Assembly (NCBI RefSeq): GCF_022698145.1
Contig: NZ_JALDAX010000030.1
Location: forward strand, 1-64,000
DNA from: Streptomyces spinosisporus
GTDB taxonomy: Bacteria > Actinomycetota > Actinomycetes > Streptomycetales > Streptomycetaceae
DNA length: 64,000 bases
Direction: 5' to 3'
The translations under genes and the position numbers were made by a program. Below the pieces are notes generated by a model that saw only the letters and a list, made by a program, of their open reading frames with translations, ran no database searches and was not told the origin of the DNA. Positions 2,000 through 50,428 of this stretch are shown piece after piece (within the stretch, counting starts at the first letter, position 1; each line of letters begins with the position of its first letter).

Positions 2000-2070
2000 T
2001 CACCGGTGGCTCTGTCCACGATCAGCGAAAACACGCACACTGGAGCTTCTGGCGGGTAGGGAGGCTCTCC

Positions 2071-3645
2071 ATGAAGACCTTGGGTCACTGGCTCGCCTCG
2101 CCGTGGCGCCGCTCCGCGCTCGCCGCGCTGGCCGGCGCCCTGCCCGTGTTCGCCTTTCCCGCGCCCTCGCTGTGGTGGTTCGCCTATGTCGCGCTGGTCC
2201 CCTGGATCGTGCTGATCCGGACGGCACCGACCGGGAAACGGGCCGCCTACGACGGCTGGAGCGGCGGTTTCGGCTATCTGCTGGCGGTGCACCACTGGCT
2301 GCTGCCGAGCCTGCACGTGTTCATCTTCCTCATAGCCGTGCTCCTGGGCGCGCTGTGGGCCCCGTGGGGCTGGCTCGTACGGCGCTTTCTGGGCGGGATG
2401 CCCGGGCCGGGGCGCGGTCTCGCCGCCCTCGCCGTCCTGCCGTCGGGCTGGCTGATGGTCGAGCTGGTGCGCTCCTGGCAGGGCCTTGGCGGCCCCTGGG
2501 GCATGCTCGGCTCCAGTCAGTGGCAGGTGGAGCCCGCGCTGCGGCTCGCCTCGGTCGGCGGGGTGTGGCTGCTGAGCTTCCTGGTGGTGGCCGTCAACGT
2601 CTCGGTCGCCGTGCTGGTGTCGGTGCGCGAGTCGAGGGTTCCGGCGGTGGCGGGCCTCGTCGCGACGGCCGCCGCGACCTCGGCGGCCTGGGTGTGGTCG
2701 CCGCGCCCCGACGTCGACGGCCGGACGCGGATCGCCGTGGTGCAGCCGGGCGTCGTCGACGGTGCCGCGAGCGGTGACCGGCGCTTCGACCGCGAGGAGC
2801 GGCTGACCCGGCAACTCGTGGGCCGGGACGTCGATCTGATCGTCTGGGGTGAGAGCAGCGTCGGTTTCGACCTCGGCGACCGCCCGGACCTGGCGCGGCG
2901 GATCGCGGCGCTCTCCCGCGCGACGGGGGCCGACATCCTGGTCAACGTGGACGCCCGGCGCTCCGACAAGCCCGGTATCTACAAGAGTTCGGTGCTGGTC
3001 GGCCCCGGCGGCCCGACCGGCGACCGCTACGACAAGATGCGGCTGGTGCCGTTCGGCGAGTACGTCCCCTTCCGCTCGGTGCTCGGCTGGGCGACCTCGG
3101 TCGGCAAGGCGGCGGGCGAGGACCGCCGGCGCGGCACCGAGCAGGTCGTGATGGACGTGGGGCACGGGCTGAGCATCGGGCCGATGGTGTGCTTCGAGTC
3201 GGCATTCCCGGACATGAGCCGCCATCTCGCCGAGGACGGCGCGGACGTCCTCATAGCGCAGTCGGCGACGTCGACGTTCCAGCACAGCTGGGCGCCCGAG
3301 CAGCACGCCTCGCTCGCCGCGCTGCGCGCCGCCGAGACCGGCCGGCCCATGGTGCACGGGACGTTGACCGGCGTCTCGGCGGTGTACGGGCCGAGCGGGC
3401 AGCGGATCGGCTCCTGGCTCGGCACGGACGCGAGCAGCTCGCGGCTGTACGACATCCCGCTGGCGCACGGCACCACGCCGTACGTCCGCTACGGCGACTG
3501 GCCGGTGCAGCTCTCGCTGCTCGTCCTCGCCGGGTGGTGCGTCAGTGAAGGCGTGCGGGCCGTGCGGCTCAGGCGGCCCGGTCCAGCACCGCGCGTACCA
3601 CCCGCTCGCACAGCTCATGAGTCGCCAGTGCGTCCCGGGCGCTGA
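2071..3645 (+). CDS. lnt: Apolipoprotein N-acyltransferase
   Basis: The 524-residue protein transfers a third acyl chain onto the N-terminal cysteine of lipoproteins at the outer face of the cytoplasmic membrane. The N-terminal ~215 residues hold about six hydrophobic segments. A carbon-nitrogen hydrolase (nitrilase) domain follows with the Glu-Lys-Cys triad visible as Glu261 (VWGESSVGF), Lys322 (YDKMRLVPFGEY) and Cys374 (PMVCFESAFPD). The RLVPFGEYVP loop is diagnostic of Lnt. The ATG at 2071 follows a purine-rich GGGAGG at 2058-2063. The last 77 bases overlap the end of the convergent oxidoreductase gene, so the basic Pro/Arg-rich tail past residue ~500 may be poorly conserved. Several lipobox proteins in this window are potential substrates. 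Confidence 0.88.
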   Translation: MKTLGHWLASPWRRSALAALAGALPVFAFPAPSLWWFAYVALVPWIVLIRTAPTGKRAAYDGWSGGFGYLLAVHHWLLPSLHVFIFLIAVLLGALWAPWGWLVRRFLGGMPGPGRGLAALAVLPSGWLMVELVRSWQGLGGPWGMLGSSQWQVEPALRLASVGGVWLLSFLVVAVNVSVAVLVSVRESRVPAVAGLVATAAATSAAWVWSPRPDVDGRTRIAVVQPGVVDGAASGDRRFDREERLTRQLVGRDVDLIVWGESSVGFDLGDRPDLARRIAALSRATGADILVNVDARRSDKPGIYKSSVLVGPGGPTGDRYDKMRLVPFGEYVPFRSVLGWATSVGKAAGEDRRRGTEQVVMDVGHGLSIGPMVCFESAFPDMSRHLAEDGADVLIAQSATSTFQHSWAPEQHASLAALRAAETGRPMVHGTLTGVSAVYGPSGQRIGSWLGTDASSSRLYDIPLAHGTTPYVRYGDWPVQLSLLVLAGWCVSEGVRAVRLRRPGPAPRVPPARTAHESPVRPGR

Positions 3646-37986: not shown

Positions 37987-39282
37987 CTACTGCTCTTCCT
38001 TCGCGACCTTGGTGATCGACTGCGCGACCTGCCCGGGGGACTTGGACCCGGCGATGAGTGCGGCGACGCTGTCGTTGACCTCCTGGCCGACGGCGGGGGC
38101 GTATGCCTGGTCGAGGTAGAGCTGGAAGCCGGTGGCGCCCTTCAACTGGGCTTGTACGGCCTTGGTGTTGGGGTCGGCGAGCGCCTTCTCCGCGCCGGGC
38201 ACGACGGGCAGGGTGTTGGTCTTCTTGACCAGTTCCAGGTCGGTGGTCTCGGAGGCGAAGAACTTCAGGAAGTCGACGGCCTCCTTCGGGGCGCCCCTGC
38301 GCAGGGCGTGGCCTCCGCCGCCGCCGAAGACCTCGGTGATCGCGCCCTGTCCGCCGTCGACGGCGGGGAAGGGGAAGAACCCGAGGTTCGCGCCGAGGCC
38401 CTTGCCCGCGTCCGCCTCGACGACGGGGGCCCACTGCCCCATCAGCTCCATGGCCGCCTTGCCGTTGCCGACCGTGGCGGCCTGGCCGTTGGGCGTCGAG
38501 TAGGCGGCGCCGAGGAAGCCCTTCTGGAACGGCTGCAGGTCGACGAGTTCCTTGAGATGCTCGCCGGCCTGGACGAACCCGTCGCCGGTGAAGTCCTTGT
38601 TCTCGTTCGCCTTCTCCAGGGCGTCGATGCCGGCGGTGCGCATGGCGAGATACGCCCAGTAGTACATGCCGGTCCAGCTCTCCTTGCCCGCGAGGGCGAG
38701 CGGGGTGATGCCCTTGGCCTTCAGCTTCTTCACCGCGTCGAGGAAGCCGGCCCAGGTGGTGGGGGGCTCGCCGATGCCGGCCTGCTCGAAGAGCGCCTTG
38801 TTGTACCAGAAGCCGACCATGCCGATGTCGAACGGGATGCCGTAGAGCTTCTTGTCGATCAGATACGGCTGCTTGGCGACCGACAGCATCCCGTCCGACC
38901 AGGGCTTGGTGGAGTCGCTGAGGTCCTCCACGAGCCCCGCGTCAACCTGCTGCTCGAGCACTCCGCCGCCCCAGGTGTGGAAGATGTCCGGCAGCTTCCC
39001 CGAGGCGATGAGCGCCGTCATCTTCGACTTGTAGGCGTCGTTCTCCAGCTGGACGATCTTCAGCTTGACCTTGGGGTTCTGGGCCTCGAACTTCTTGGCG
39101 AGGCCGGCCCATACGGTCTTGGTGGGTTCGGTGGTGGAGATGTTCCACCACTCGATCGTGGTCGTCCCGTCCGACGACCCCCCGTCCGAATCGCCGCCGC
39201 AGCCGCTCAGTGCCGTCATGCCCAGACCGGCCGCGGCGGAGGCCGCCAGGAAGCCGCGGCGGGACAGTGCCCGGTCGCCCAT
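37987..39282 (-). CDS. Sugar ABC transporter substrate-binding lipoprotein, Tat-type signal
   Basis: The 431-residue protein begins MGDRALSRRGFLAASAAAGL, a twin-arginine signal, then the lipobox ALSGC, and a CUT1-type solute-binding fold (TIEWWNISTTEP, GKLPDIFHTWGGG, FWYNKALFEQAGIGEPPTTW). It should deliver xylo-oligosaccharides to the two permeases. The ATG at 39282 has AAGGAG upstream; an ATG three bases earlier is too close to the RBS. It is the first gene of the operon binding protein - permease - permease - xylanase. Confidence 0.92.
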   Translation of the reverse strand: MGDRALSRRGFLAASAAAGLGMTALSGCGGDSDGGSSDGTTTIEWWNISTTEPTKTVWAGLAKKFEAQNPKVKLKIVQLENDAYKSKMTALIASGKLPDIFHTWGGGVLEQQVDAGLVEDLSDSTKPWSDGMLSVAKQPYLIDKKLYGIPFDIGMVGFWYNKALFEQAGIGEPPTTWAGFLDAVKKLKAKGITPLALAGKESWTGMYYWAYLAMRTAGIDALEKANENKDFTGDGFVQAGEHLKELVDLQPFQKGFLGAAYSTPNGQAATVGNGKAAMELMGQWAPVVEADAGKGLGANLGFFPFPAVDGGQGAITEVFGGGGGHALRRGAPKEAVDFLKFFASETTDLELVKKTNTLPVVPGAEKALADPNTKAVQAQLKGATGFQLYLDQAYAPAVGQEVNDSVAALIAGSKSPGQVAQSITKVAKEEQ

Positions 39283-39333
39283 CATGCGCTCCTTGGGGTA
39301 GGGACGGCGCGCGTCCACGACCGTCCGTCGTGA

Positions 39334-39346
39334 CCGAAAGTTTCGG
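39334..39346. promoter_or_regulatory. Candidate xylan-operon operator, CGAA-type palindrome
   Basis: CCGAAAGTTTCGG is a near-perfect inverted repeat (CCGAAA-G-TTTCGG) about 50 bases upstream of the binding-protein start. It matches the CGAA-N-TTCG core reported for xylose-operon regulators in Streptomyces, so it is a plausible repressor site. Further short inverted repeats occur at 39428-39447 (GGAGTA/TACTCC) and 39459-39469 (CGAATGATTCG). Confidence 0.6.
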
Positions 39347-39499
39347 AGAAGATCCAGAAAGATGCGTTGTTGCCGCACCCTAGAGACAGCTCCTAAACGG
39401 TGGCAACCCCTTGCGCACGGTAAATCTGGAGTAGGAAACGGTACTCCGTAATGTTCGCCGAATGATTCGAATGTTTCGCCTCGTTGCGTGGACTCCCGG

Positions 39500-40831
39500 C
39501 TAGAGGCCTATGTCGCGGCTACGGATGTCGTCCAGGGACTCGCGGCGCACCAAAAGCCGGGCCCGGCCCTCGTGCACGGCGGCGACCGGCGGGCGGCCGA
39601 CGAGGTTGTAGGTCGAGGCCATCGACAGGTGGTAGGCCCCGGCGACGGGGATCGCGAGCAGGTCTCCGGGACGGACGTCGGCGGGGAGTTCGCTCTCGGC
39701 GAGGACATCGCCGGCCTCGCAGTGCCGGCCGACCACGGCCGCCGGGGCGAGCGGCGCCGCGCTGTGCCGGCCGACCAGCCGGGGCGCGTAGCGCACGCCG
39801 TAGAGCGCGGGCCGCGGGTTGTCGCTCATGCCGCCGTCGACGGCCACGAACGTACGGTCGCCGGAGCGCTTGACGGCCAGGACGTGGTAGAGGGCCACGC
39901 CGGCCGGTCCCACGACGGCACGGCCGGGTTCGATGATCAGACGCGGCACGGGCAGTCCTGCGGAGGCGCAGGCCTCGGCGAGTTCGGTGCGGACCTTGCG
40001 GGACAGCGTGGTCAGGTCCAGGGCCTCGTCGCCCGGGCGGTAGGCGATGCCGTGGCCGCCGCCGAGGTCGAGTTCGGGCAGCAGCAGGCCGTGCTGCTCG
40101 TGCAGCCGGGCCATCAGGCCCACCATGCGCCGTACGGCGGCCAGATAGGGCTTGACCGTGGTGATCTGCGACCCCAAGTGGCAGTGCAGGCCGGTGAGTT
40201 CGAGCTGCGGCTGGTCCAGGATCCGCGCGATGGCGTGCTGGGCGTAGCCGTCGGAGATGGACAGGCCGAACTTCTGGTCGTCGGTGCCGGTACGGATCTT
40301 CGCGTGGCCGCCCGCGCTGATACCGGGCACCACCCGGACCATGACCCTCTGATGGCCGCCCGGGCCGACCGCGGCGGCCAGTCGCGCGATCTCGGAGGGG
40401 CTGTCGATGACGATCCGGCCGACGCCCAGGCGCAGCGCGCTCTGAAGGTCGCGCGGGCTCTTGGCGTTGCCGTGCAGGACGATGCGCTCGGGCGGGAAGC
40501 CGGTGGTGACGGCGAGTTCCAGTTCGCCGGCCGAGCAGACGTCGAGCCCCAGGCCCTCCTCCTGCATCCAGTGGACCATGGCCCGGCACAGGAACGCCTT
40601 GGCCGCGTACAGGACTTCGGCGTCCGGGAAGGCGTGCCGGTAGGTGCGGCAGCGTTCACGGACCTCGCCCTCGTCGAGGACGTAGACGGGCGTGCCGAAC
40701 CGGTCGGCGATCTCGGCGAGCGGCACTCCGCCCACGGCCGGATGCCCGGACCGGGGCTCGGTGGTGGAGGCGGGCCAGACCGACAGCTCGTCGGCGACCG
40801 CGGTGACGGCTCGTTCGTGGACGGTGGTCAT
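39500..40831 (-). CDS. Diaminopimelate decarboxylase-like PLP enzyme (fold type III)
   Basis: The 443-residue enzyme shows AAKAFLCRAMVHWM with the PLP Lys, the HGNAKS loop, GLHCHLGSQI, LDLGGGHGIAYRPGDE, IIEPGRAVVGPAGV and GRHCEAGDVLAESELP with the active-site Cys. It decarboxylates meso-diaminopimelate to lysine or a related amino acid. It is alone among non-lysine genes, and Streptomyces usually has a separate lysA, so this copy may serve a secondary pathway. The ATG at 40831 follows GGGGAGAG. A small gene on the same strand lies 16 bases upstream. Confidence 0.86.
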   Translation of the reverse strand: MTTVHERAVTAVADELSVWPASTTEPRSGHPAVGGVPLAEIADRFGTPVYVLDEGEVRERCRTYRHAFPDAEVLYAAKAFLCRAMVHWMQEEGLGLDVCSAGELELAVTTGFPPERIVLHGNAKSPRDLQSALRLGVGRIVIDSPSEIARLAAAVGPGGHQRVMVRVVPGISAGGHAKIRTGTDDQKFGLSISDGYAQHAIARILDQPQLELTGLHCHLGSQITTVKPYLAAVRRMVGLMARLHEQHGLLLPELDLGGGHGIAYRPGDEALDLTTLSRKVRTELAEACASAGLPVPRLIIEPGRAVVGPAGVALYHVLAVKRSGDRTFVAVDGGMSDNPRPALYGVRYAPRLVGRHSAAPLAPAAVVGRHCEAGDVLAESELPADVRPGDLLAIPVAGAYHLSMASTYNLVGRPPVAAVHEGRARLLVRRESLDDIRSRDIGL

Positions 40832-40847
40832 CGTGTGTGCTCTCCCC

Positions 40848-41183
40848 TCAACCGATCCGCAGGGCGGGCGCGGGTGCGACAGGTGTGAGCGGCGCGGGCG
40901 CCGGTGCCGAGAACTGGGGGTCCAGCGTGAGCCGGGTGACGCCGAGCGGTGCGGTCAGGGCACGCAGCGCGGGTTCGGCGAGCATGATCCACGCCTGGTC
41001 GGGGCCGAGGGTCGCGGTCAGGGCGCGTACGGAGGTGAAGGCGACGGCTGTGCGCTCGCCGAGGGGCGTGCGGAAGAGCCGCGCCACGCAGCCCGAGGGT
41101 CCCGGCCGGACCGGAACGAACAGTGGCCCGGCCGGGGTTGGATCGGCGGGCTCGGGGTCTTCGCCGCACAGGGGGTCGGTCAT
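40848..41183 (-). CDS. Small conserved protein, SAV_915-like (tentative)
   Basis: The 111-residue soluble protein has LFVPVRPGPSGCVARLFRTPLGERTAVAFTSVRALTATLGPDQAWIMLAEPALRALTAPLGVTRLTLDP as its conserved core and Pro-rich ends. The FRTPLGERTAVAFTS block recalls a Streptomyces family I know only as SAV_915-like; this is tentative. The ATG at 41183 has AGGAGCCCCTC upstream. It lies 16 bases before the decarboxylase-like gene on the same strand, so the two form an operon. A 112-base heptamer array begins 11 bases upstream of its start. Confidence 0.62.
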   Translation of the reverse strand: MTDPLCGEDPEPADPTPAGPLFVPVRPGPSGCVARLFRTPLGERTAVAFTSVRALTATLGPDQAWIMLAEPALRALTAPLGVTRLTLDPQFSAPAPAPLTPVAPAPALRIG

Positions 41184-41194
41184 GAGGGGCTCCT

Positions 41195-41306
41195 GGTTCT
41201 CGGTTCTCGGTTCTCGGTTCTTGGTTCTCGGTTCTTGGTTCTCGGTTCTTGGTTCTCGGTTCTTGGTTCGTGGTTCTCGATGCTCGGTACTCGGTACTCG
41301 GTGCTT
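41195..41306. repeat. Heptamer minisatellite, 16 tandem 7-base units
   Basis: Starting at 41195 the sequence is an unbroken register of 7-base units: GGTTCTC x3, then GGTTCTT and GGTTCTC alternating to 41264, then GGTTCGT, GGTTCTC, GATGCTC, GGTACTC x2 and GGTGCTT. Sixteen units fill 112 bases. It lies directly upstream of the 111-residue gene, where slippage could change promoter spacing. Confidence 0.9.
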
Positions 41307-41385
41307 GCCCCGGGAGATGCCTGGTGGGGGGGCTCGTCATCGACGCTATGCCCGCTCACCCGGGGTTCCGGCCCCCTCATGACGC

Positions 41386-41427
41386 GACGCTGACGGCGAT
41401 CGGGCGGACGCTGACGGGACGCTGACG
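41386..41427. repeat. Three direct repeats of GACGCTGACG
   Basis: Exact ten-base copies start at 41386, 41407 and 41418 in the region upstream of the universal stress gene. They may be binding sites of a stress or potassium regulator. The rest of this 403-base gene-free stretch is the heptamer array and about 80 bases with no recognisable feature. Confidence 0.5.
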
Positions 41428-41586
41428 CGGCGGTCTGCGGAGGCGGAAACGTGCCGTCAGAAGCGCGCCAAAAACGGCGGACGAGGTGGCTGCGGGCGGC
41501 GGACGAGGAGTGGGATGGAAGGCAGCAGCGGCGCCCACGAGGAACGTACGGCGCCCACGGTGGACGTACGGAGAGGCGGTGGAGCC

Positions 41587-42150
41587 ATGTCCGATTCCGA
41601 CCCTGTGCCCACCCGGGTCGTGGTGGGGGTGAGCGGTTCGCTGGGCAGCCTCACCGCGCTGTGCCGCGCCGCGGCGGAGGCCCGGCTCCGGGGCGCCTCG
41701 CTGTGGCCGGTACTGGCCTGGGAGCCGCCGGGCGGAGAACTCGCCGCACGCCGCTCCCCCGCCTCCGCGCTGATGGTCGGCGAGTGGCAGCGTCTGGCCC
41801 GGGAGCGGCTGCTCGCGGCGCTCGACGACGTGTTCGGCGACGACGGCCCGCGGGTCCCGATGACCGCGCTCGTCGTCCGGGGCGCCCCGGGCCGCGCCCT
41901 CGTCGCGACGGCCGACCGCGAGAGCGACGTGCTGGTCGTCGGCGCCGGCCGGCGCAGCGCGCTGCACCGCGCCCTCGCCCCTTCGACGAGCCGGTACTGC
42001 CTGGCCCACGCCACCTGCCCGGTCCTCGCGGTGCCGCCGTCCCCGCTCCAGTCCGAACTGGCGGCCGTCCACCGCCGCAACACCTGGCGGCGGCGCCTGG
42101 ACTCCGGGGACGTGCTCAGGGGGACGAAGACGCTACGACCGGAGGCGTGA
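41587..42150 (+). CDS. Universal stress protein (UspA) family
   Basis: This protein of about 187 residues has one Usp domain: TRVVVGVSGSLGSLTALCRAA at the start (Rossmann-like strand 1), a mid ALVVRGAPGRALVATAD, and DVLVVGAGRRSALHRALAPSTSRYCLAHATCPVLAVP, where the GxG(9)GS/T ATP-binding motif is readable. It lacks a signal peptide. C-terminal ~30 residues are basic and extra. The ATG at 41587 follows GGTGGAGCC. It is oriented towards the remnant of kdpE and may be part of the kdp-linked stress response. Confidence 0.85.
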   Translation: MSDSDPVPTRVVVGVSGSLGSLTALCRAAAEARLRGASLWPVLAWEPPGGELAARRSPASALMVGEWQRLARERLLAALDDVFGDDGPRVPMTALVVRGAPGRALVATADRESDVLVVGAGRRSALHRALAPSTSRYCLAHATCPVLAVPPSPLQSELAAVHRRNTWRRRLDSGDVLRGTKTLRPEA

Positions 42151-42194
42151 GAGCTCGACGCCCACCTCGTCCCCTGCCGCGTGCTCCGGGAGAC

Positions 42195-42622
42195 CCCCCA
42201 GACCTCCTGGAGCAGGTACTTCTGGGTGACGAGCCGGCCAGGGTTGGTGATCGCGGGGTCTCCTCGACGCGGCGCACGGCCGCGCGCAGCCGGGCCATCA
42301 GCTCGTCCATGCTGAAGGGCTTGGTGATGTAGTCGTCGGCGCCCGCGTCGAGTGCGGCCACCTTCTCCTCGGAGGCCCGGCGCGCGGACAGCACCAGCAC
42401 CGGGACCCGGCTCCAGCCGCGCAGGGCCTTGAGGACGTCGACGCCGTCCATGTCCGGCAGTCCGAGGTCGAGTATCACCACGTCGGGCCGGCGCGTGGCG
42501 GCGAGCCGCAGGGCCGTGGCCCCGTCGGGGGCGGCGTCCACGCCGTACCGGCGCACCTGCATGTTGATCACGAGGGCCCGCACCAGCTGCGGGTCGTCCT
42601 CCACCACCAGCACCCTGGTCAT
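42195..42622 (-). pseudogene. kdpE: Truncated and frameshifted KdpE response regulator
   Basis: The receiver domain is intact: MTRVLVVEDDPQLVRALVIN, phospho-acceptor Asp52 in VILDLGLPDMDG and Lys101 in YITKPFSMDEL. After about residue 121 the family sequence stops. Fifteen or so bases on, in another frame (42195-42251), appears ITNPGRLVTQKYLLQEVWG, which is the middle of the KdpE winged-helix output domain. The rest of that domain, the strand-loop-helix start and the DNA-recognition end, is missing. A deletion plus frameshift fits. No kdpD-like kinase exists between it and kdpC. Confidence 0.8.
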
Positions 42623-42647
42623 GGGTGTAGCCCCTCCTCACAGCCGT

Positions 42648-42686
42648 GTGAGCCGGCCGGCCGGACGGCTCCGGTGGCCGGCTCAC
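42648..42686 (-). terminator. Hairpin downstream of kdpC
   Basis: GTGAGCCGGCC pairs over 11 bases with GGCCGGCTCAC around a 17-base loop. It lies 21 bases past the kdpC stop. It would end the kdp transcript before the kdpE remnant. Confidence 0.55.
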
Positions 42687-42706
42687 GCCGGGTTCACGTA
42701 ACGCCA

Positions 42707-43375
42707 TCAGCCCTTGGCCACGAGGGCCTTGAGCGCCATGTTGAGTTCGAGGACGTTCACCCGGGGCTCACCGATGAAGCCGAGCGTGCGGCTCTCGGTG
42801 TGGTCCTGGACGAGCCGGTTCACCTGCGCGACGGACAGACCGTTGCGTTCGGCGACCCGATGCACCTGGATCTCGGCGTACTGGGGAGAGATGTCCGGGT
42901 CCAGGCCGGAGCCGGAGGACGTGACCGCGTCGGCGGGCACCTGGGACGCCCTGACCGTGTAGCCGGGCACCGAGTTGTCCTTGACGACGGCGGCCTTCGC
43001 GTCCTTGACCCACTTGATCAGGTCGGCGTTGTCGCCGGAACGGTTGGTGGCGCCGGACAGGATCAGCTTGTACTGCGTGTTGACGCTGTTGGTGCCGAGG
43101 CCGTTCTGCGGCCGTCCCTGGAACCACTTCAGGTCGGGTGCCGGCGTCTCCTGCCCCTTCTTCAACGGCAGGTTGTACGCCTGGCCGATCAGCGAGGAGC
43201 CGACGACCCTGCCGTCCGCCTTGATCTCGGAACCGTTCGCCTTGCCGGTGAACAGCCCCTGGGCGATGCCGGTGAGGACCAGCGGGTAGATGACGCCCGT
43301 CACCAGGGTCAGCACGAGGAGGGCACGCAGGCCCGCCCCGAGCAACCGGGCGGTGTTGGTCACGGAGTTGTTCAT
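42707..43375 (-). CDS. kdpC: K+-transporting ATPase subunit C
   Basis: The 222-residue subunit has one N-terminal membrane anchor (LLGAGLRALLVLTLVTGVIYPLVLTGIAQ) and an extracytoplasmic domain with GSSLIGQAY, KWFQGRPQNG, VTSSGSGLDPDISPQYAEIQVHRVA and a C-terminal NVLELNMAL. It stabilises KdpB within the pump. It is the last gene of the kdp operon, five bases after kdpB. Confidence 0.96.
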   Translation of the reverse strand: MNNSVTNTARLLGAGLRALLVLTLVTGVIYPLVLTGIAQGLFTGKANGSEIKADGRVVGSSLIGQAYNLPLKKGQETPAPDLKWFQGRPQNGLGTNSVNTQYKLILSGATNRSGDNADLIKWVKDAKAAVVKDNSVPGYTVRASQVPADAVTSSGSGLDPDISPQYAEIQVHRVAERNGLSVAQVNRLVQDHTESRTLGFIGEPRVNVLELNMALKALVAKG

Positions 43376-43380
43376 GGCGA

Positions 43381-45495
43381 TCAGCCGATTCCGGGGATGA
43401 GGGAGATGAGCAGGTCGATGAGCTTGATGCCGACGAACGGCGCGACCAGCCCGCCGAGGCCGTAGATCGTGAGGTTGCGCCGCAGCAACTTGTCCGCACT
43501 GACCGGCCGGTACTGCACACCCCTGAGGGACAGCGGCACCAGCGCGACGATGATCAGCGCGTTGAAGACGACCGCGGACAGGATCGCGGAGTCGGGTGAG
43601 GACAGGTCCATGATGTTGAGCTTGTCGAGGCCCGGGTAGACGGCCGCGAACAGCGCCGGGATGATCGCGAAGTACTTCGCGACGTCGTTGGCGATGGAGA
43701 ACGTGGTCAACGCGCCCCGGGTGATGAGGAGTTGCTTGCCGATCTCGACGATCTCGATGAGCTTGGTCGGGTTGGAGTCGAGGTCGACCATGTTGCCGGC
43801 CTCCTTGGCGGCCGACGTGCCGGTGTTCATCGCGACCCCGACGTCCGCCTGGGCCAGCGCGGGTGCGTCGTTGGTGCCGTCACCGGTCATGGCGACGAGC
43901 TTGCCGCCCGCCTGCTCCCGCTTGATGAGCGCCATCTTGTCCTCGGGCGTGGCCTCGGCGAGGAAGTCGTCGACGCCCGCCTCCTCGGCGATCGCCTTGG
44001 CGGTCAGCGGGTTGTCGCCCGTGATCATGACCGTCTTGATGCCCATGCGGCGCAGCTCGTCGAACCGCTCGCGCATGCCGTCCTTGACGACGTCCTTGAG
44101 GTGGATGACCCCCAGCACGCGGGCACCGCGGCCGTCCTTGACGGCGACCAGCAGCGGCGTACCGCCGGCCTCGGAGATGCGGTCGGCCATGCCGTCCGCG
44201 TCCTCGGCGACCGTGCCGCCCTCGTTCTGGACCCAGGCGATGACCGAACCGGCCGCGCCCTTGCGGATCCTGCGCCCGTCGACGTCCACGCCCGACATAC
44301 GGGTCTGGGCGGTGAAGGCGATCCAGTCGGCGCCCGCGAGCTCTCCTTGGTGACGCTCGCGCAGCCCGTACTTCTCCTTCGCCAGGACGACGATGGAGCG
44401 GCCCTCGGGTGTCTCGTCGGCCAGCGACGAGAGTTGGGCTGCGTCCGCGACCTCGGCCTCGGTGGTGCCGCTCACCGGCACGAACTCGGCTGCCTGACGG
44501 TTGCCGAGGGTGATGGTGCCGGTCTTGTCGAGGAGCAGCGTGGAGACGTCGCCGGCGGCCTCGACCGCACGGCCCGACATGGCCAGGACGTTGCGCTGGA
44601 CGAGCCGGTCCATGCCCGCGATGCCGATCGCGGAGAGCAGGGCGCCGATCGTGGTCGGAATCAGACAGACCAGGAGTGCGACCAGCACGACCATCGTCAG
44701 GTGCGTGCCCGCGTAGTCCGCGAGCGGCGGCAGGGTGGCCACGGCGAGCAGGAAGACGATCGTCAGCGAGGCCAGCAGGATGTTCAGCGCGATCTCGTTC
44801 GGCGTCTTCTGCCGGGCCGCGCCCTCGACCAGGTTGATCATCCGGTCGATGAAGGTCTCCCCGGGCCTTGTCGTGATCTTGATGACGATGCGGTCGGAGA
44901 GGACCTTCGTGCCGCCGGTGACGGCCGAGCGGTCGCCGCCGGACTCACGGATGACCGGGGCCGACTCACCGGTGATCGCCGACTCGTCGACGGAGGCGAC
45001 GCCCTCGATGACGTCACCGTCACCGGGGATGATGTCGCCGGCCTCGCAGACGACCAGGTCACCGATCCTCAGCTCCGTGCCGGGCACCCGCTCCTCACGG
45101 TCGTCCACGAGACGGTCGTCCACGAGCCGGCGCGCCACCGTGTCGGTCTTGGCCTTGCGCAGGGTGTCGGCCTGCGCCTTGCCACGGCCCTCGGCGACGG
45201 CCTCCGCCAGGTTGGCGAAGATCACGGTCAGCCACAGCCAGGCGCTGATCGCCCAGCCGAACCAGTCGCCCGGGTCCTTGAAGGAGAAGACGGTGGTCAG
45301 GAGGGAGCCGACCCACACCACGAACATCACGGGGGACTTGACCATCACCCGCGGGTCCAGCTTGCGGAAGGCGTCCGGCAGCGACGTGAGCAGCTGCCTG
45401 GGGTCGAAGAGGCCGGCGCCGACACGTCCTTCGGCGGGCTTGTGCCCGGTGGGTACGTCGCTGTGCGGCGCCCGGGTCGGAGTGGCTGTGGACAT
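43381..45495 (-). CDS. kdpB: K+-transporting P-type ATPase subunit B
   Basis: The ~704-residue catalytic ATPase has the phosphorylation motif [35 protein letters not shown], and [19 protein letters not shown], all standard P-type signatures, plus ~8 membrane helices. It hydrolyses ATP to drive K+ uptake through KdpA. The start at 45495 ([10 protein letters not shown]) has AGAGGA at the right distance; an in-frame ATG at 45528 overlapping the kdpA stop is possible. The joint between the two contains GGTTCTCGGTAC, matching the heptamer array upstream of the 111-residue gene. Confidence 0.95.
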
Positions 45496-45524
45496 CGAGT
45501 CCTCTTGGTTCTCGGTACGGGTGG

Positions 45525-47189
45525 TCATGACGCCAGCCCCTCGGCCAGCGGGCCCAGCGCGAGCGCCGGGAAGTACGTCAGACCGGTGATGATCAGGATG
45601 GCGCCCACCAGCAGACCGGTGAACAGCGGCTTCTCGGTGCGCAGGGTGCCCGCGGTGGCCGGGACCGGCTTCTGCTCGCCGAGCGAACCCGCCAGCGCCA
45701 GGACGAACACCATCGGCAGGAAGCGGCCGAACAGCATCGCCAGACCGATCGTGCTGTTGAACCACTGCGTGTCCGCGTTCAGTCCGGCGAACGCCGAGCC
45801 GTTGTTGTTGGCCCCCGACGTATAGGCGTAGAGGATCTCGGAGAAGCCGTGCGCCCCGGAGTTCGTCATCGAGTTCGCCGGAGTGGGCAGCGCCATGGCG
45901 AAGGCCGTGAAGACCAGCACCAGTGCCGGCGTGATCAGGATGTAGCAGGCCGCCAGCTTGATCTCGCGTGAGCCGATCTTCTTGCCCAGGTACTCGGGTG
46001 TACGTCCGACCATCAGACCGGCGATGAACACCGCGATGACCGCCATGATCAGCATGCCGTAGAGACCGGAGCCGGTACCACCCGGCGCGATCTCGCCCAG
46101 CATCATGCCGAGCATGGTGATGCCGCCGCCGAGGCCGGTGAAGGAGGAGTGGAAGGAGTCCACCGCGCCGGTCGAGGTGAGCGTGGTCGACGTCGCGAAG
46201 ATCGACGAGGCACCGACGCCGAAGCGGACCTCCTTGCCCTCCATGGCACCACGGGCGAGTTCGAAGGCCGGGCCGTGGTGGGTGAACTCGGTCCACATCA
46301 TCAGCGAGACGAAGCCGACCCAGATGGTGGCCATGGTCGCGAGGATCGCGTAGCCCTGCTTGGCCGAGCCCACCATGACGCCGAAGGTGCGGGTCAGCGA
46401 GAACGGGATGACCAGGATCAGGAAGATCTCGAAGAGGTTCGTGAACGGCGTGGGGTTCTCGAACGGGTGGGCGCTGTTGGCGTTGAAGTAGCCGCCGCCG
46501 TTGGTGCCCAGCTCCTTGATGGCCTCCTGGGAGGCGACTGCGCCGCCGTTCCACTGCTGCGAGCCGCCCATGAACTGGCCGACCTCGTGGATGCCGGAGA
46601 AGTTCTGGATGGCGCCGCAGGCGACCAGGACCACCGCGGCGATCGCGGCCATCGGTACCAGGATGCGGATGACACCGCGCACCAGGTCGGACCAGAAGTT
46701 GCCGAGTTCACCGGTGCGCGACCGCGCGAAGCCGCGCACCAGCGCCACCGCGACGGCGATGCCGACGGCGGCCGAGACGAAGTTCTGGACGGCCAGACCG
46801 GCGGTCTGCACGACATGGCCCATGGTCTGTTCGCCGTAGTACGACTGCCAGTTGGTGTTGGTCACGAAGGAAACGGCGGTGTTGAACGCCTGGTCCGGGT
46901 CGATCGAGGAGAAGCCGAGCGAACCGGGCAGGACGCCCTGGATCCGCTGCAGCAGGTAGAGGAAGAGGACGCCGACGACGGAGAAGGCCAGGACGCCACG
47001 CAGATACGCGGGCCAGCGCATCTCCGTGTCGGGGTCGGCACCGATGCCCTTGTAGATCCACTTCTCGACACGCCAGTGCTTGTCGGAGGAGTAGACCCCG
47101 GCCATGTAGTTGCCGAGCGGGATGTGGACGACCGCCAGCGCGCCTATGAGGGCGAGCAGCTGGAGGACGCCTGCGAGTACGGGACCCAT
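45525..47189 (-). CDS. kdpA: K+-transporting ATPase subunit A
   Basis: The 554-residue membrane subunit binds and translocates K+, with ten or more hydrophobic helices and selectivity-filter-like loops ([57 protein letters not shown]). It begins [26 protein letters not shown]. It lies seven bases after kdpF. The operon order is 27-residue peptide - kdpF - kdpA - kdpB - kdpC. Confidence 0.96.
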
Positions 47190-47196
47190 GTCTGTC

Positions 47197-47286
47197 TCAG
47201 AACCTCTCCGGGAAGATCAGGGCGAGGACGAGATAACCCAGCAGGGCGACGGCCACGACGAGGCCGACGATGTTCTCGGCGGTCAC
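47197..47286 (-). CDS. kdpF: K+-transporting ATPase subunit F, small membrane protein
   Basis: The 29-residue single-pass protein ([19 protein letters not shown], then ALIFPERF) has the length and Pro-Glu-Arg-Phe ending typical of KdpF, which stabilises the pump. The GTG start at 47286 overlaps the stop of the upstream small gene by GTGA. Confidence 0.88.
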
Positions 47287-47366
47287 AGCTTGGTCACCCC
47301 CTTGGCGACGAGGGCCACCAGAACGAAACACGCGATCGTGGTGACGACGAAGGCCAGATCGGCCAT
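47283..47366 (-). CDS. 27-residue single-pass membrane peptide upstream of kdpF
   Basis: The ATG at 47366 follows AGGAGCTCACG and opens MADLAFVVTTIACFVLVALV then AKGVTKL, followed by TGA that overlaps the kdpF start. It is one membrane helix with a basic C-terminus. Because it is coupled to kdpF it is probably a real subunit or regulator of the pump. It is too short for most gene finders. I know of no assigned function. Confidence 0.72.
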   Translation of the reverse strand: MADLAFVVTTIACFVLVALVAKGVTKL

Positions 47367-47723
47367 CGTGAGCTCCTGGAGTGAGGTTCGATCGGACGGG
47401 GACGGTTCGAGGAAACAGCCTTCGTGGCCGGAATCGAGCGCCGTTGACGGGTCCCATACGGCACACTGCGCGCCTTTGACGGAACTCTTACGGAAGGGCG
47501 ATCACCGCAGGTCGGCGGGTGATTCGGGTCACGCCAGACAGCAGCGTGCGGTGCTCGCAGGCGAGCCGGATCAGGGGCAGACGCCGTACGTCATGACGCT
47601 GAGTGCTCGCCTCCGGTCGCCGGAGCCGCCCTCCCCCGTACAGCGGATCCACCGGCCTGTGTGACTCAGCGCCCGCTCCTTGATGTGCGGCCTACGCCGA
47701 CCAGGCCACTCTTAACGGAAGCT

Positions 47724-47762
47724 TGACGCCCAAGGGCCCATGATCCGTGGGCCCAGGCGTCA
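47724..47762. promoter_or_regulatory. Nested hairpin upstream of the APC permease
   Basis: Outer arms TGACGCC (47724-47730) and GGCGTCA (47756-47762), inner arms GGGCCC (47734-47739) and GGGCCC (47749-47754). It lies 75 bases upstream of the permease start; an operator or RNA element is possible. The other ~430 bases between the kdp peptide and the permease contain no recognisable gene. Confidence 0.5.
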
Positions 47763-47837
47763 CGCTCCGCTTACGCTGGTGCCGCCGTCCGCGTGATGGC
47801 CCGACACCACGCTGAGCCGCACATCAGGAGCACGCCG

Positions 47838-49790
47838 ATGGCCACGACCGAGCACCCCCCACCCAGCCGATTGCGCGCGTGGATGCTGGAAGGCCTGTCC
47901 GACATGGGCAAGGGCCACGCCAAGCAGGAACAGCCGGCCGAGTCGGACCCGGAGCACAAGGGTCAGCCCTGGTACCGGGTCATGTGCCTCACCGGTGTCG
48001 ACTACTTCTCGACCCTGGGTTACCAGCCGGGCATCGCGGCCTTGGCGGCGGGGCTGCTGTCACCCGTGGCGACCATCGTGCTGGTGATCGTCACCCTCGC
48101 GGGCGCCCTCCCGGTGTACCGGCGCGTGGCCGAGGAGAGTCCGCACGGGCAGGGCTCGATCGCGATGCTGGAGCGGCTGCTGACGTTCTGGAAGGGCAAG
48201 CTCTTCGTCCTGACCCTGCTCGGCTTCGCCGCCACCGACTTCCTGATCACCATCACGCTCTCGGCGGCGGACGCCTCGACCCACCTGGTCGAGAACCCGC
48301 ACCTGAACAGCGCCCTGCACGACAAGCAGATGCTGATCACCCTGCTCCTGGTGGCCCTGCTCGGCGCGGTCTTCCTCAAGGGCTTCCTGGAGGCCATCGG
48401 TGTCGCGTTCGCCCTGGTGGGCGTCTACCTCAGCCTGAACGTGGTGGTCGTGATCGTCGGCCTGTGGCACGTCGCCACCGCCGGGCACGTGGTCACCGAC
48501 TGGTCCAGCGGCCTGACCGCCGAGCACGGCAACGCCTTCGCGATGATCGGTGTCGCCCTGGTCGTCTTCCCCAAACTCGCCCTGGGCCTCTCCGGCTTCG
48601 AGACCGGCGTCGCCGTCATGCCGCACGTCAAGGGCGACCCGGACGACACCGAGGAGCGGCCCACGGGCCGGATCCGGGACACCAAGAAGCTGCTCACCAC
48701 GGCCGCCATCATCATGAGCGCCTTCCTGATCACGACCAGTTTCATCACCACACTTCTGATCCCGGAGAAGGAGTTCGAGACCGGCGGCGAGGCCAACGGC
48801 CGTGCGCTCGCCTACCTGGCCCACCACTACCTGGGCAGCGGCTTCGGCACGGTCTACGACATCTCGACGATCGCCATCCTGTGGTTCGCCGGCGCCTCCG
48901 CGATGGCCGGCCTGCTCAACCTCATGCCGCGCTATCTCCCGCGCTACGGCATGGCCCCGCACTGGGCGCGGGCCGTGCGCCCCATGGTCATCGTCTTCAT
49001 CCTGATCGCCTTCCTGGTCACCTGGATCTTCGACGCGAACGTCGACGCGCAGGGCGGCGCGTACGCCACCGGCGTGCTGGTGCTGATCAGCTCCGCCGCG
49101 ATCGCGGTGACCATCGCCGCCCACAAGGCAGGCCAGCGCGGCTGGACCATCGCCTTCGGCGTGATCTCGGCGGTGTTCCTCTACACGACCGTCGTCAACG
49201 TCATCGAGCGCCCCGACGGCGTCAAGATCGGTGCCTGCTTCATCGCCGGCATCATCCTGGTCTCCCTGCTGTCCCGGCTGGCCCGCGCCTTCGAGCTGCG
49301 TGTGACCAGCGTGTCCCTGGACCCGATGGCGGATCGTTTCATCAGGGACATGGCGAGCCGGAAGATCCGGTTCATCGCCAACGAGCCGGACCAGCGGGAC
49401 AAGGCCGAGTACCGCGAGAAGATCGAGCAGATCCAGACCGACAACGACCTGCCCGGCGAGGACTTCGTCTTCGTCGAGGTCACGGTCCTCGACCCGTCCG
49501 AGTTCGAGGCGGGCCTGACCGTGCGCGGCGAGGTCCTGCACAACCGCTACCGGATCCTGACCCTCGAGTCCTCCTCCATCCCGAACGCCCTGGCAGCGCT
49601 GCTCCTCCACGTCCGCGACGTCACGGGCTGCACCCCGCACATCTACTTCGAGTGGACCGAGGGCAGCCCCTTCGCCAACTTCCTGCGCTTCTTCCTCTTC
49701 GGCCAGGGCGAGGTCGCCCCGGTCACCCGCGAGGTGCTGCGCGAGGCGGAGCCCGACCGCGACCGCAGGCCGCGCGTCCACACCGGCTGA
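47838..49790 (+). CDS. APC-family permease, possibly KimA-like potassium importer
   Basis: The 650-residue protein has about 12 membrane helices between residues ~60 and 480, beginning [28 protein letters not shown] ~150-residue cytoplasmic C-terminal domain follows ([31 protein letters not shown] through [25 protein letters not shown]). This layout matches KimA/Kup-like members of the APC superfamily better than amino acid permeases. Its position beside kdpFABC supports potassium, but substrate is inference. The ATG at 47838 follows AGGAGCACGCCG. Confidence 0.8.
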
Positions 49791-49909
49791 ACCGGCGGCC
49801 CACATCGAAGCGGCGTCCGCATCAGAGCGGCGTCAAGACCCGGCGTCACGCCGTCAGAACCCCGTCAGCGACAGCCGCACCGGCGCCCCACCACCCCTAC
49901 GGTCCCCTC

Positions 49910-50428
49910 ATGGACCGGAGCACACCCCGGCGCCCGGCCGTCGACCGCCACTGGCGTGGCAGTGCCCGACTGGCCGCCTGCTGCGCCGTCGTCTTCCTCG
50001 CCATGACGACCCTGGTCGACTGGAACGCCGGGACCCTGACCCCGGCGCGCGGTCTGCTGTGGCTGGCGCTGTCGTCCATGGTCTTCACCGTCCTCCTCCC
50101 GCCCCACGTCACCGCGGATTCCGGCAGGTTGACGGTACGTGGCCCACTGCACAGCAGCACCGTCCACACCGACGCCCTGGTCTCGGTCCGGCAGTACGAC
50201 GGCGCCTCCTCACACCTCGTACTGCAGGACACCCACGGCCACCGCCTGGAACTCGACCCCCGCGTCCTGACCGCCAACCCCCTCCTCTGGCACGAACTGG
50301 ACACCGGCGTCCGCCGCTCCCTCGACCACGGCACCCTCCGCCACGGCGCGGACGTCCTGCACCGCCTCGGCCACCACATCGACGACGAAACCGCCGAGGC
50401 GGTACTCAGAGCATCGGGCCTGTCCTGA
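49910..50428 (+). CDS. Membrane protein with PH-like domain (hypothetical)
   Basis: The 172-residue protein has two adjacent hydrophobic helices (SARLAACCAVVFLAMTTLV and TPARGLLWLALSSMVFTVLLPP) followed by a ~110-residue domain with GRLTVRGPLHSSTVHTDALVSVRQYDGASSHLVLQDTHGHRLELDPRVL, a beta-rich pattern like bacterial PH-like (bPH) domains, and a C-terminal helix. It may bind a membrane or ligand. The start follows a weak RBS. The 3' end overlaps the first of three tandem 25-base repeats. The function is unknown. Confidence 0.65.
   Translation: MDRSTPRRPAVDRHWRGSARLAACCAVVFLAMTTLVDWNAGTLTPARGLLWLALSSMVFTVLLPPHVTADSGRLTVRGPLHSSTVHTDALVSVRQYDGASSHLVLQDTHGHRLELDPRVLTANPLLWHELDTGVRRSLDHGTLRHGADVLHRLGHHIDDETAEAVLRASGLS

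Follow-up and report, generated by a model that had tools for sequence, protein, structure and literature searches.

The window, which is the whole 64-kb stretch of Streptomyces spinosisporus DNA analysed here, carries a kdp potassium-pump operon on the reverse strand, the remnant of a kdpE gene beyond kdpC, and a predicted operator upstream of a kdpF-like micro-ORF. The features of the locus are the following, the term box being used for sites of the tandem element:

41379..41427, (-): weaker candidate box with 4 mismatches to the looser consensus, flanked by usp and the lysA-like gene
41515..42150, (+): universal stress protein gene (usp), Pfam Usp E 1.6e-19; convergent; follows kdpD in relatives
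42116..42622, (-): remaining open frame of 168 aa, composed of the receiver and about 45 out-of-frame residues
42151..42182: scar of the second deletion, between the point where kdpE homology runs out and the usp stop
42182..42622, (-): kdpE remnant; receiver codons 1-123 intact, followed by a net deletion of 124 bp and part of the output domain out of frame
42707..43375, (-): kdpC, 222 aa, complete; Pfam KdpC E 6.2e-63, NCBIfam NF010599 above cut-off
43381..45495, (-): kdpB, 704 aa, complete; NCBIfam TIGR01497 1057.5 bits, cut-off 527.9
45525..47189, (-): kdpA, 554 aa, complete; PF03814 E 4.0e-228, TIGR00680 above cut-off
47197..47286, (-): kdpF-like micro-ORF, named from resemblance and position only
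47444..47492, (-): predicted tandem KdpE-type operator, CGTAAGAGTTCCGTCAA-N15-CGTATGGGACCCGTCAA, 0 mismatches to consensus
49820..49868, (+): second box of the window, with 3 mismatches; the gene for a 172-aa protein begins 41 bp downstream

Full-length kdpA, kdpB and kdpC agree with the first-pass annotation, which had described the pump genes as complete, and together they mark the locus as a predicted KdpFABC pump operon. The kdpB product contains what we take to be its DKTGT and TGES motifs. An Rfam scan of 39000-49500 returned no match at gathering scores, on which riboswitch control of the pump was rejected. Divergent from kdpF lies a permease-like ORF of 665 aa (47793-49790), for which Pfam and NCBIfam gave no match and the PDB none that was meaningful; we take it to be possibly KimA-like, and it is left unnamed given the absence of a database match.

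Two deletions at kdpE and kdpD

The kdpE remnant is preceded by GAGGAGG, and its 168-aa frame, whose translation opens with MTRVLVVEDDPQLVRALVIN, overlaps the usp gene at the 3' end. The product is recognized as a KdpE-type receiver by Pfam Response_reg (E 7.6e-29), and its best NCBIfam model is KdpE NF007820, with 128 bits against a full-length cut-off of 325 that the intact paralogue also fails to reach (238). Its residues 1-126 share 87% identity with the intact KdpE encoded in the second kdp operon of this genome (L018). D9, D10, D52, S79 and K101, numbered on the translation, are all present, and we take their phosphorylation roles to be those of the corresponding residues in E. coli KdpE. 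An in-frame winged-helix output domain is absent, Pfam Trans_reg_C being found in both intact KdpE proteins and not in the remnant. Alignment with the paralogue and seven relatives places a single net deletion of 124 bp at about codon 123-124; this length causes the frameshift, and the output-domain piece ITNPGRLVTQKYLLQEVWGVS (about 42251-42182) lies in a frame different from that of the receiver. Homology to kdpE then stops near 42182, about 40 codons short of the normal stop. Relative to L050, a second deletion of about 2.7 kb, estimated by coordinate subtraction, removed the 3' end of kdpE and the whole of kdpD, reaching within about 31 bp of the usp stop. No kdpD match was found in 41000-43000, where the best hit (E 0.37) is that of the KdpD Usp domain on the usp gene.

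The order kdpABC-kdpE-kdpD-usp(convergent)-lysA-like is intact at six of 20 relatives' loci (L051, L053, L056, L058, L061 and L064), and the window reads kdpABC-kdpE'-usp-lysA-like; the state of the window is therefore derived, by loss. This comparison with related Streptomyces, which the first-pass annotation had proposed as a check, bears out the local loss, and the alignment and the Pfam match confirm its view that kdpE is broken past an intact receiver. Its description needs correction in two respects. The frameshifting deletion in kdpE is real, but it is not the only lesion, and kdpD is indeed missing locally, but its expected place is not between kdpC and kdpE: given the order in relatives, its loss occurred beyond kdpE, on the side away from kdpC.

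The lesion site lies more than 20 kb from both ends of its 65,181-bp contig, and the lesions far exceed typical sequencing slips. A sequencing or assembly artefact could be suspected in a draft genome of 83 contigs (9,405,312 bases) with a junction matched nowhere else, but it is extremely unlikely, as there are two separate large lesions, around whose junctions no repeats were found, and similar losses occur in many independent assemblies, including the single-contig G009 and G193.

Intact KdpDE pairs elsewhere in the genome

An adjacent intact kdpD is absent from the window operon, which thus has no complete KdpDE in cis, and intact KdpD and KdpE are present in trans in the same genome. The contigs contain two full kdpD genes (C1:86372 and C1:889757; the two KdpD matches have E 2.2e-100 and 6.1e-100) and two full kdpE genes (C1:88945 and C1:889030), both of the latter encoding receiver and output domains; the KdpD and KdpE of both pairs carry the expected domains. 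One pair, in the order kdpE-kdpD, follows a second complete kdpABC that begins at C1:884532 (L018), and the other, in the order kdpD-kdpE, is free-standing (L017). The genome thus totals two KdpA, two KdpC, two KdpD and two full KdpE, with 84 receiver matches of all families. Since intact KdpD and KdpE occur twice elsewhere, the KdpDE system has not been lost, which refutes the central claim of the first-pass annotation under the refuting condition that it had itself named. A further group of features lies in L018 at 2037-3182, some 2.1 kb ahead of the intact operon's own box: a degenerate box with 5 mismatches, a micro-ORF resembling kdpF, and a DUF4118 protein. Together they may be a relic, or else form a sensor unit of their own.

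A conserved, predicted tandem operator upstream of kdpF

The element upstream of kdpF (47492-47444) spans 49 bp, with two units separated by 15 bases, and is exact in the window. Across 101 upstream regions, L066 being left out for too little upstream DNA, it is present with at most 3 mismatches over 28 constrained positions in 100, and in 66 it is exact; 1010 dinucleotide-chain shuffles never gave fewer than 8 mismatches. Only the 15-bp spacer occurs, with 0 of 101 for each of the spacers 8-14 and 16-23. A slightly looser consensus gives 90 sites in 60 whole genomes, and the reversed pattern gives none. These 60 genomes comprise 54 hand-picked for few contigs (six or fewer), the window's own genome, and G189, G193, G207, G244 and G255, which were added as top matches to the window kdpE.

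In this set the box lies upstream of 59 of the 64 kdpA loci, with or without adjacent kdpDE: 19/19 loci with kdpE-kdpD, 9/10 with kdpD-kdpE, 22/24 with neither gene, 8/8 with kdpE only, 1/1 with truncated kdpE and 0/2 with a kdpD fragment. Three of the five loci below threshold carry a box at 4 mismatches, and G047 and G105 have none; in the latter two (L169 and L170) kdpABC is followed by an N-terminal KdpD piece only, and kdpE is missing. Pairwise identity at the constrained positions is 97.7% among 16 operons without kdpE or kdpD versus 97.4% among 47 with the full pair, while flanking 40-bp blocks reach 33-52% and the spacer 48-57%. Control in trans is the best explanation for an operator that remains so conserved where its regulator is missing locally. 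It could be argued that the pump has become either constitutive or silent, the operator being a relic and the operon drifting, given that the local kdpE and kdpD are gone and that redundancy with a second complete operon would permit decay. Such a state is improbable: the operator is exact and, in contrast to its flanks, equally conserved in operons lacking kdpDE, and KdpA, KdpB and KdpC are full length. The exact match of this conserved KdpE-type element to its consensus makes the earlier proposal, of a pump that is constitutive or under a different regulator, unlikely.

The predicted binder of the element

From these sequence comparisons we infer that KdpE would be the protein that binds the tandem element. 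According to the consulted sections of PMC5401905, the M. smegmatis KdpE site CCGTAAAGAAACCATCAAGGCC, 22 bp long, was mapped by footprint and EMSA, and KdpE binding was not seen at the M. smegmatis kdpDE promoter. The Streptomyces element shares with this site the (C)CGTAA and TCAA halves, the 11-bp step and the position upstream of kdpF. M. smegmatis, as described in those sections, has one unit, local kdpDE and demonstrated KdpE binding, whereas in Streptomyces there are two units in a fixed 32-bp repeat, which also stand upstream of operons without kdpDE. The two units of the window are identical to the M. smegmatis site at 14 and 15 of 22 positions, and that site fits the half-site at 11 of 14 fixed positions (3 mismatches), a partial likeness. 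This resemblance is suggestive of KdpE binding and not proof of it, because 15 of the approximately 128,000 22-mers on both strands of the 64-kb window reach at least 14 identities, both units included, and one other reaches 16.

In 20 of 21 genomes the free-standing kdpD is preceded by a half-site with no more than 2 mismatches, compared with 13 of 420 shuffles; this half-site is often looser (CATCAG forms) and is absent in G025. The scan covered the whole fetched stretch in L153 and L155, in which the position of the kinase motif was not identified. A single unit upstream of kdpD is consistent with autoregulation. Four full boxes directly precede kdpD (G096, G055 and G089) or kdpE (G019). 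Beyond Streptomyces, a scan of 246 genomes of the class found the site in 15 of the 224 non-Streptomyces genomes, kdp-bearing or not; of 13 such sites fetched, nine adjoin kdpA, three adjoin KdpD/KdpE-like genes, and L200 adjoins neither.

Direct repeats with an 11-bp step are a general design of the OmpR/PhoB family, and the many response regulators of the genome, with its 84 receiver matches, offer other candidates of the OmpR family that could use the tandem element in place of KdpE. That another regulator does so is nevertheless unlikely, in view of the likeness to the mapped M. smegmatis KdpE site, the half-site found upstream of kdpD itself (20/21) and the presence of the box beside kdp genes in other genera.

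Boxes away from kdpA

The 31 box sites not associated with kdpA include 15 that were fetched and read, one in the window, four at kdpD or kdpE, one at the usp/lysA position of L058, and ten others. At nine of the 15 fetched sites, a relative of the 172-aa protein starts 40-42 bp from the box, one of them being cut by the fetched end. The gene region of this protein in the window, with its box 41 bp upstream, spans 49820-50425. Eight relatives show 50-70% identity, the protein has a weak bacterial PH-domain match below cut-off, and a structural model predicts two helices and a beta domain (pLDDT 75).

At three further sites (L179, L180 and L184) the box is located 74-86 bp upstream of a 404-aa membrane protein without a Pfam match, which in L184 is cut by the fetched end; in G193 and G255 the box of this protein lies about 3.7 kb before a third KdpD-type kinase. 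In L182 (G074) a box with 2 mismatches is found 100 bp upstream of an ORF judged by eye to be universal-stress-protein-like, and L178 and L188 have no clear gene. The position between usp and the lysA-like gene, scanned in four syntenic relatives, gave 3 mismatches in L058, 4 in L064, 5 in L056 and 7 in L051 (near chance).

Recurrent local absence of kdpDE in Streptomyces

Local absence of kdpDE is common in Streptomyces. Among the 60 genomes, 52 have kdpA, at the 64 loci mentioned above, and within 12 kb downstream 24 of these loci have neither gene, 19 have kdpE-kdpD, 10 kdpD-kdpE, 8 kdpE only, 2 a kdpD fragment and 1, the window, a truncated kdpE; a complete kdpDE is thus absent downstream in 35 of 64. 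When the five genomes chosen for their likeness to the window kdpE are set aside, the 56 remaining loci divide into 23 with neither gene, 14 kdpE-kdpD, 10 kdpD-kdpE, 6 kdpE only, 2 kdpD fragments and the window. KdpD and KdpE are nonetheless both kept in 52/52 genomes with kdpA. All but two of the 60 genomes (58) contain a kdpD-kdpE pair; in G012 the pair has the order kdpE-kdpD, and G107 lacks kdpA as well. Seven of the eight genomes without kdpA keep the pair (G013, G025, G057, G080, G089, G110 and G124; not G107), for which reason it may have other targets.

A second sample consisted of 102 loci, namely the window, its paralogue L018 and 100 others selected by similarity to the window kdpE (20) or KdpA (80); L060 and L099 are the same sequence, and seven loci cut by contig ends were excluded, leaving 95. 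Of these, 43 have full kdpE-kdpD, 4 kdpD-kdpE, 17 kdpE alone, 6 kdpE with a kdpD fragment, 16 neither gene, 4 a broken kdpE without kdpD (the window, L085, L096 and L100), 3 a broken kdpE with full kdpD, 1 kdpD alone and 1 a kdpD fragment alone. On a KdpA tree of the 102 loci, with these 95 counted, the full and not-full states require at least 26 changes; the tree is a quick one with 34 of 98 inner forks open, and its counts of change cannot separate gain from loss. Remaining gene fragments indicate that the recurrence includes loss. The truncated kdpE of the window represents one stage of a common process. In L100 (14605-16632) kdpE carries an independent truncation, at residue 126, and beyond it comes an ORF for a transposase of the IS110 family (Transposase_20 in Pfam, E 2.4e-18); in the sister locus L133 both kdpE and kdpD are full.

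Fate of the truncated receiver

The mean pN/pS of the remnant receiver against 42 intact receivers is 0.241, and only two of the 42, a set that includes one outlier with a ratio of 0.99, show a higher value. Two residues of the remnant are unseen among the 42. The receiver would thus be slightly relaxed, if anything, and the pattern fits a recent loss with little or no constraint. A search of the genome collection with the exact junction pattern gave 0 matches, a search from which a diverged junction or near records may escape, and among the matches listed, from 295 Streptomyces genomes, none extends more than 7 bases past the junction. A shared or conserved truncation was rejected on these two results, the first of them strict. 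Elsewhere, the matching part of a broken kdpE stops at residue 31, 46 or 60, so there is no preferred receiver-only form.

The first-pass annotation had also proposed that a stand-alone receiver could compete for phosphate. The receiver is intact, as it stated, but no sign of retained function was found in pN/pS. An expressed regulator of this kind would take phosphate from KdpD or pair with full KdpE and so damp the response, and an intact receiver with a good start region, the small number of unseen residues and the independent truncation in L100 are in its favour. It is distinctly improbable, because extra constraint is not seen in a ratio exceeded by only 2/42, the junction has no match in the genome collection, and a receiver-only form is not preferred. 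The truncated receiver is probably a decaying recent pseudogene without function.

Probable control of the pump in trans

In E. coli, the kdpFABCDE region unites the pump and its two-component system, an arrangement like that of the window's ancestor. Unlike E. coli, the present genome has the order kdpE-kdpD and two operons, with the local regulators lost in one. The kdpFABC of Bacillus thuringiensis, according to the consulted part of PMC6488665, resembles the window operon in having no adjacent kdpDE, but it carries a c-di-AMP riboswitch, whereas the window has a predicted protein-type operator and no Rfam match in 39000-49500. Deinococcus radiodurans likewise has an unusual Kdp regulator arrangement, a naturally split KdpD, but as presented in the sections of PMC5716572 consulted, an intact response regulator lies in an operon beside the pump, while in the window the regulator is truncated and the kinase gone. 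In the portion of the review PMC10117811 consulted, KdpDE is described as widely conserved in Streptomyces and unanalysed, and unpublished data are mentioned by which it is not required for growth of S. venezuelae at 0.5 M NaCl or KCl. A search of titles and abstracts, mainly of freely available literature, found no description of the tandem element or of a Streptomyces KdpE regulon. The broken kdpE is therefore ordinary in itself, and the operator would be a new form of a known KdpE site.

With a probability of about 0.8, the window operon, one of two kdpFABC operons in the genome, is controlled in trans by a surviving KdpDE, its own pair having been destroyed by at least two deletions. The surviving KdpD would sense potassium or osmotic stress and phosphorylate its KdpE, which would then bind the tandem operator and activate the pump in trans. 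The local kdpDE would have become dispensable because the copy in trans suffices. A broader arrangement is quite possible and is put forward tentatively, in which one genus-wide core KdpDE would act as a hub that controls all kdpFABC copies, small membrane and universal-stress proteins, and itself, via one 49-bp operator; local kdpDE copies would be gained and lost freely, and in this strain the leftover receiver might even damp the hub.

The predicted operator is concrete and testable, and a short list of predicted targets results from the comparison. Control in trans would account for the many Streptomyces kdp operons that have no adjacent regulators, and in genomes with several copies of such a system, it is misleading to infer that the system is lost from the absence of a neighbouring gene.
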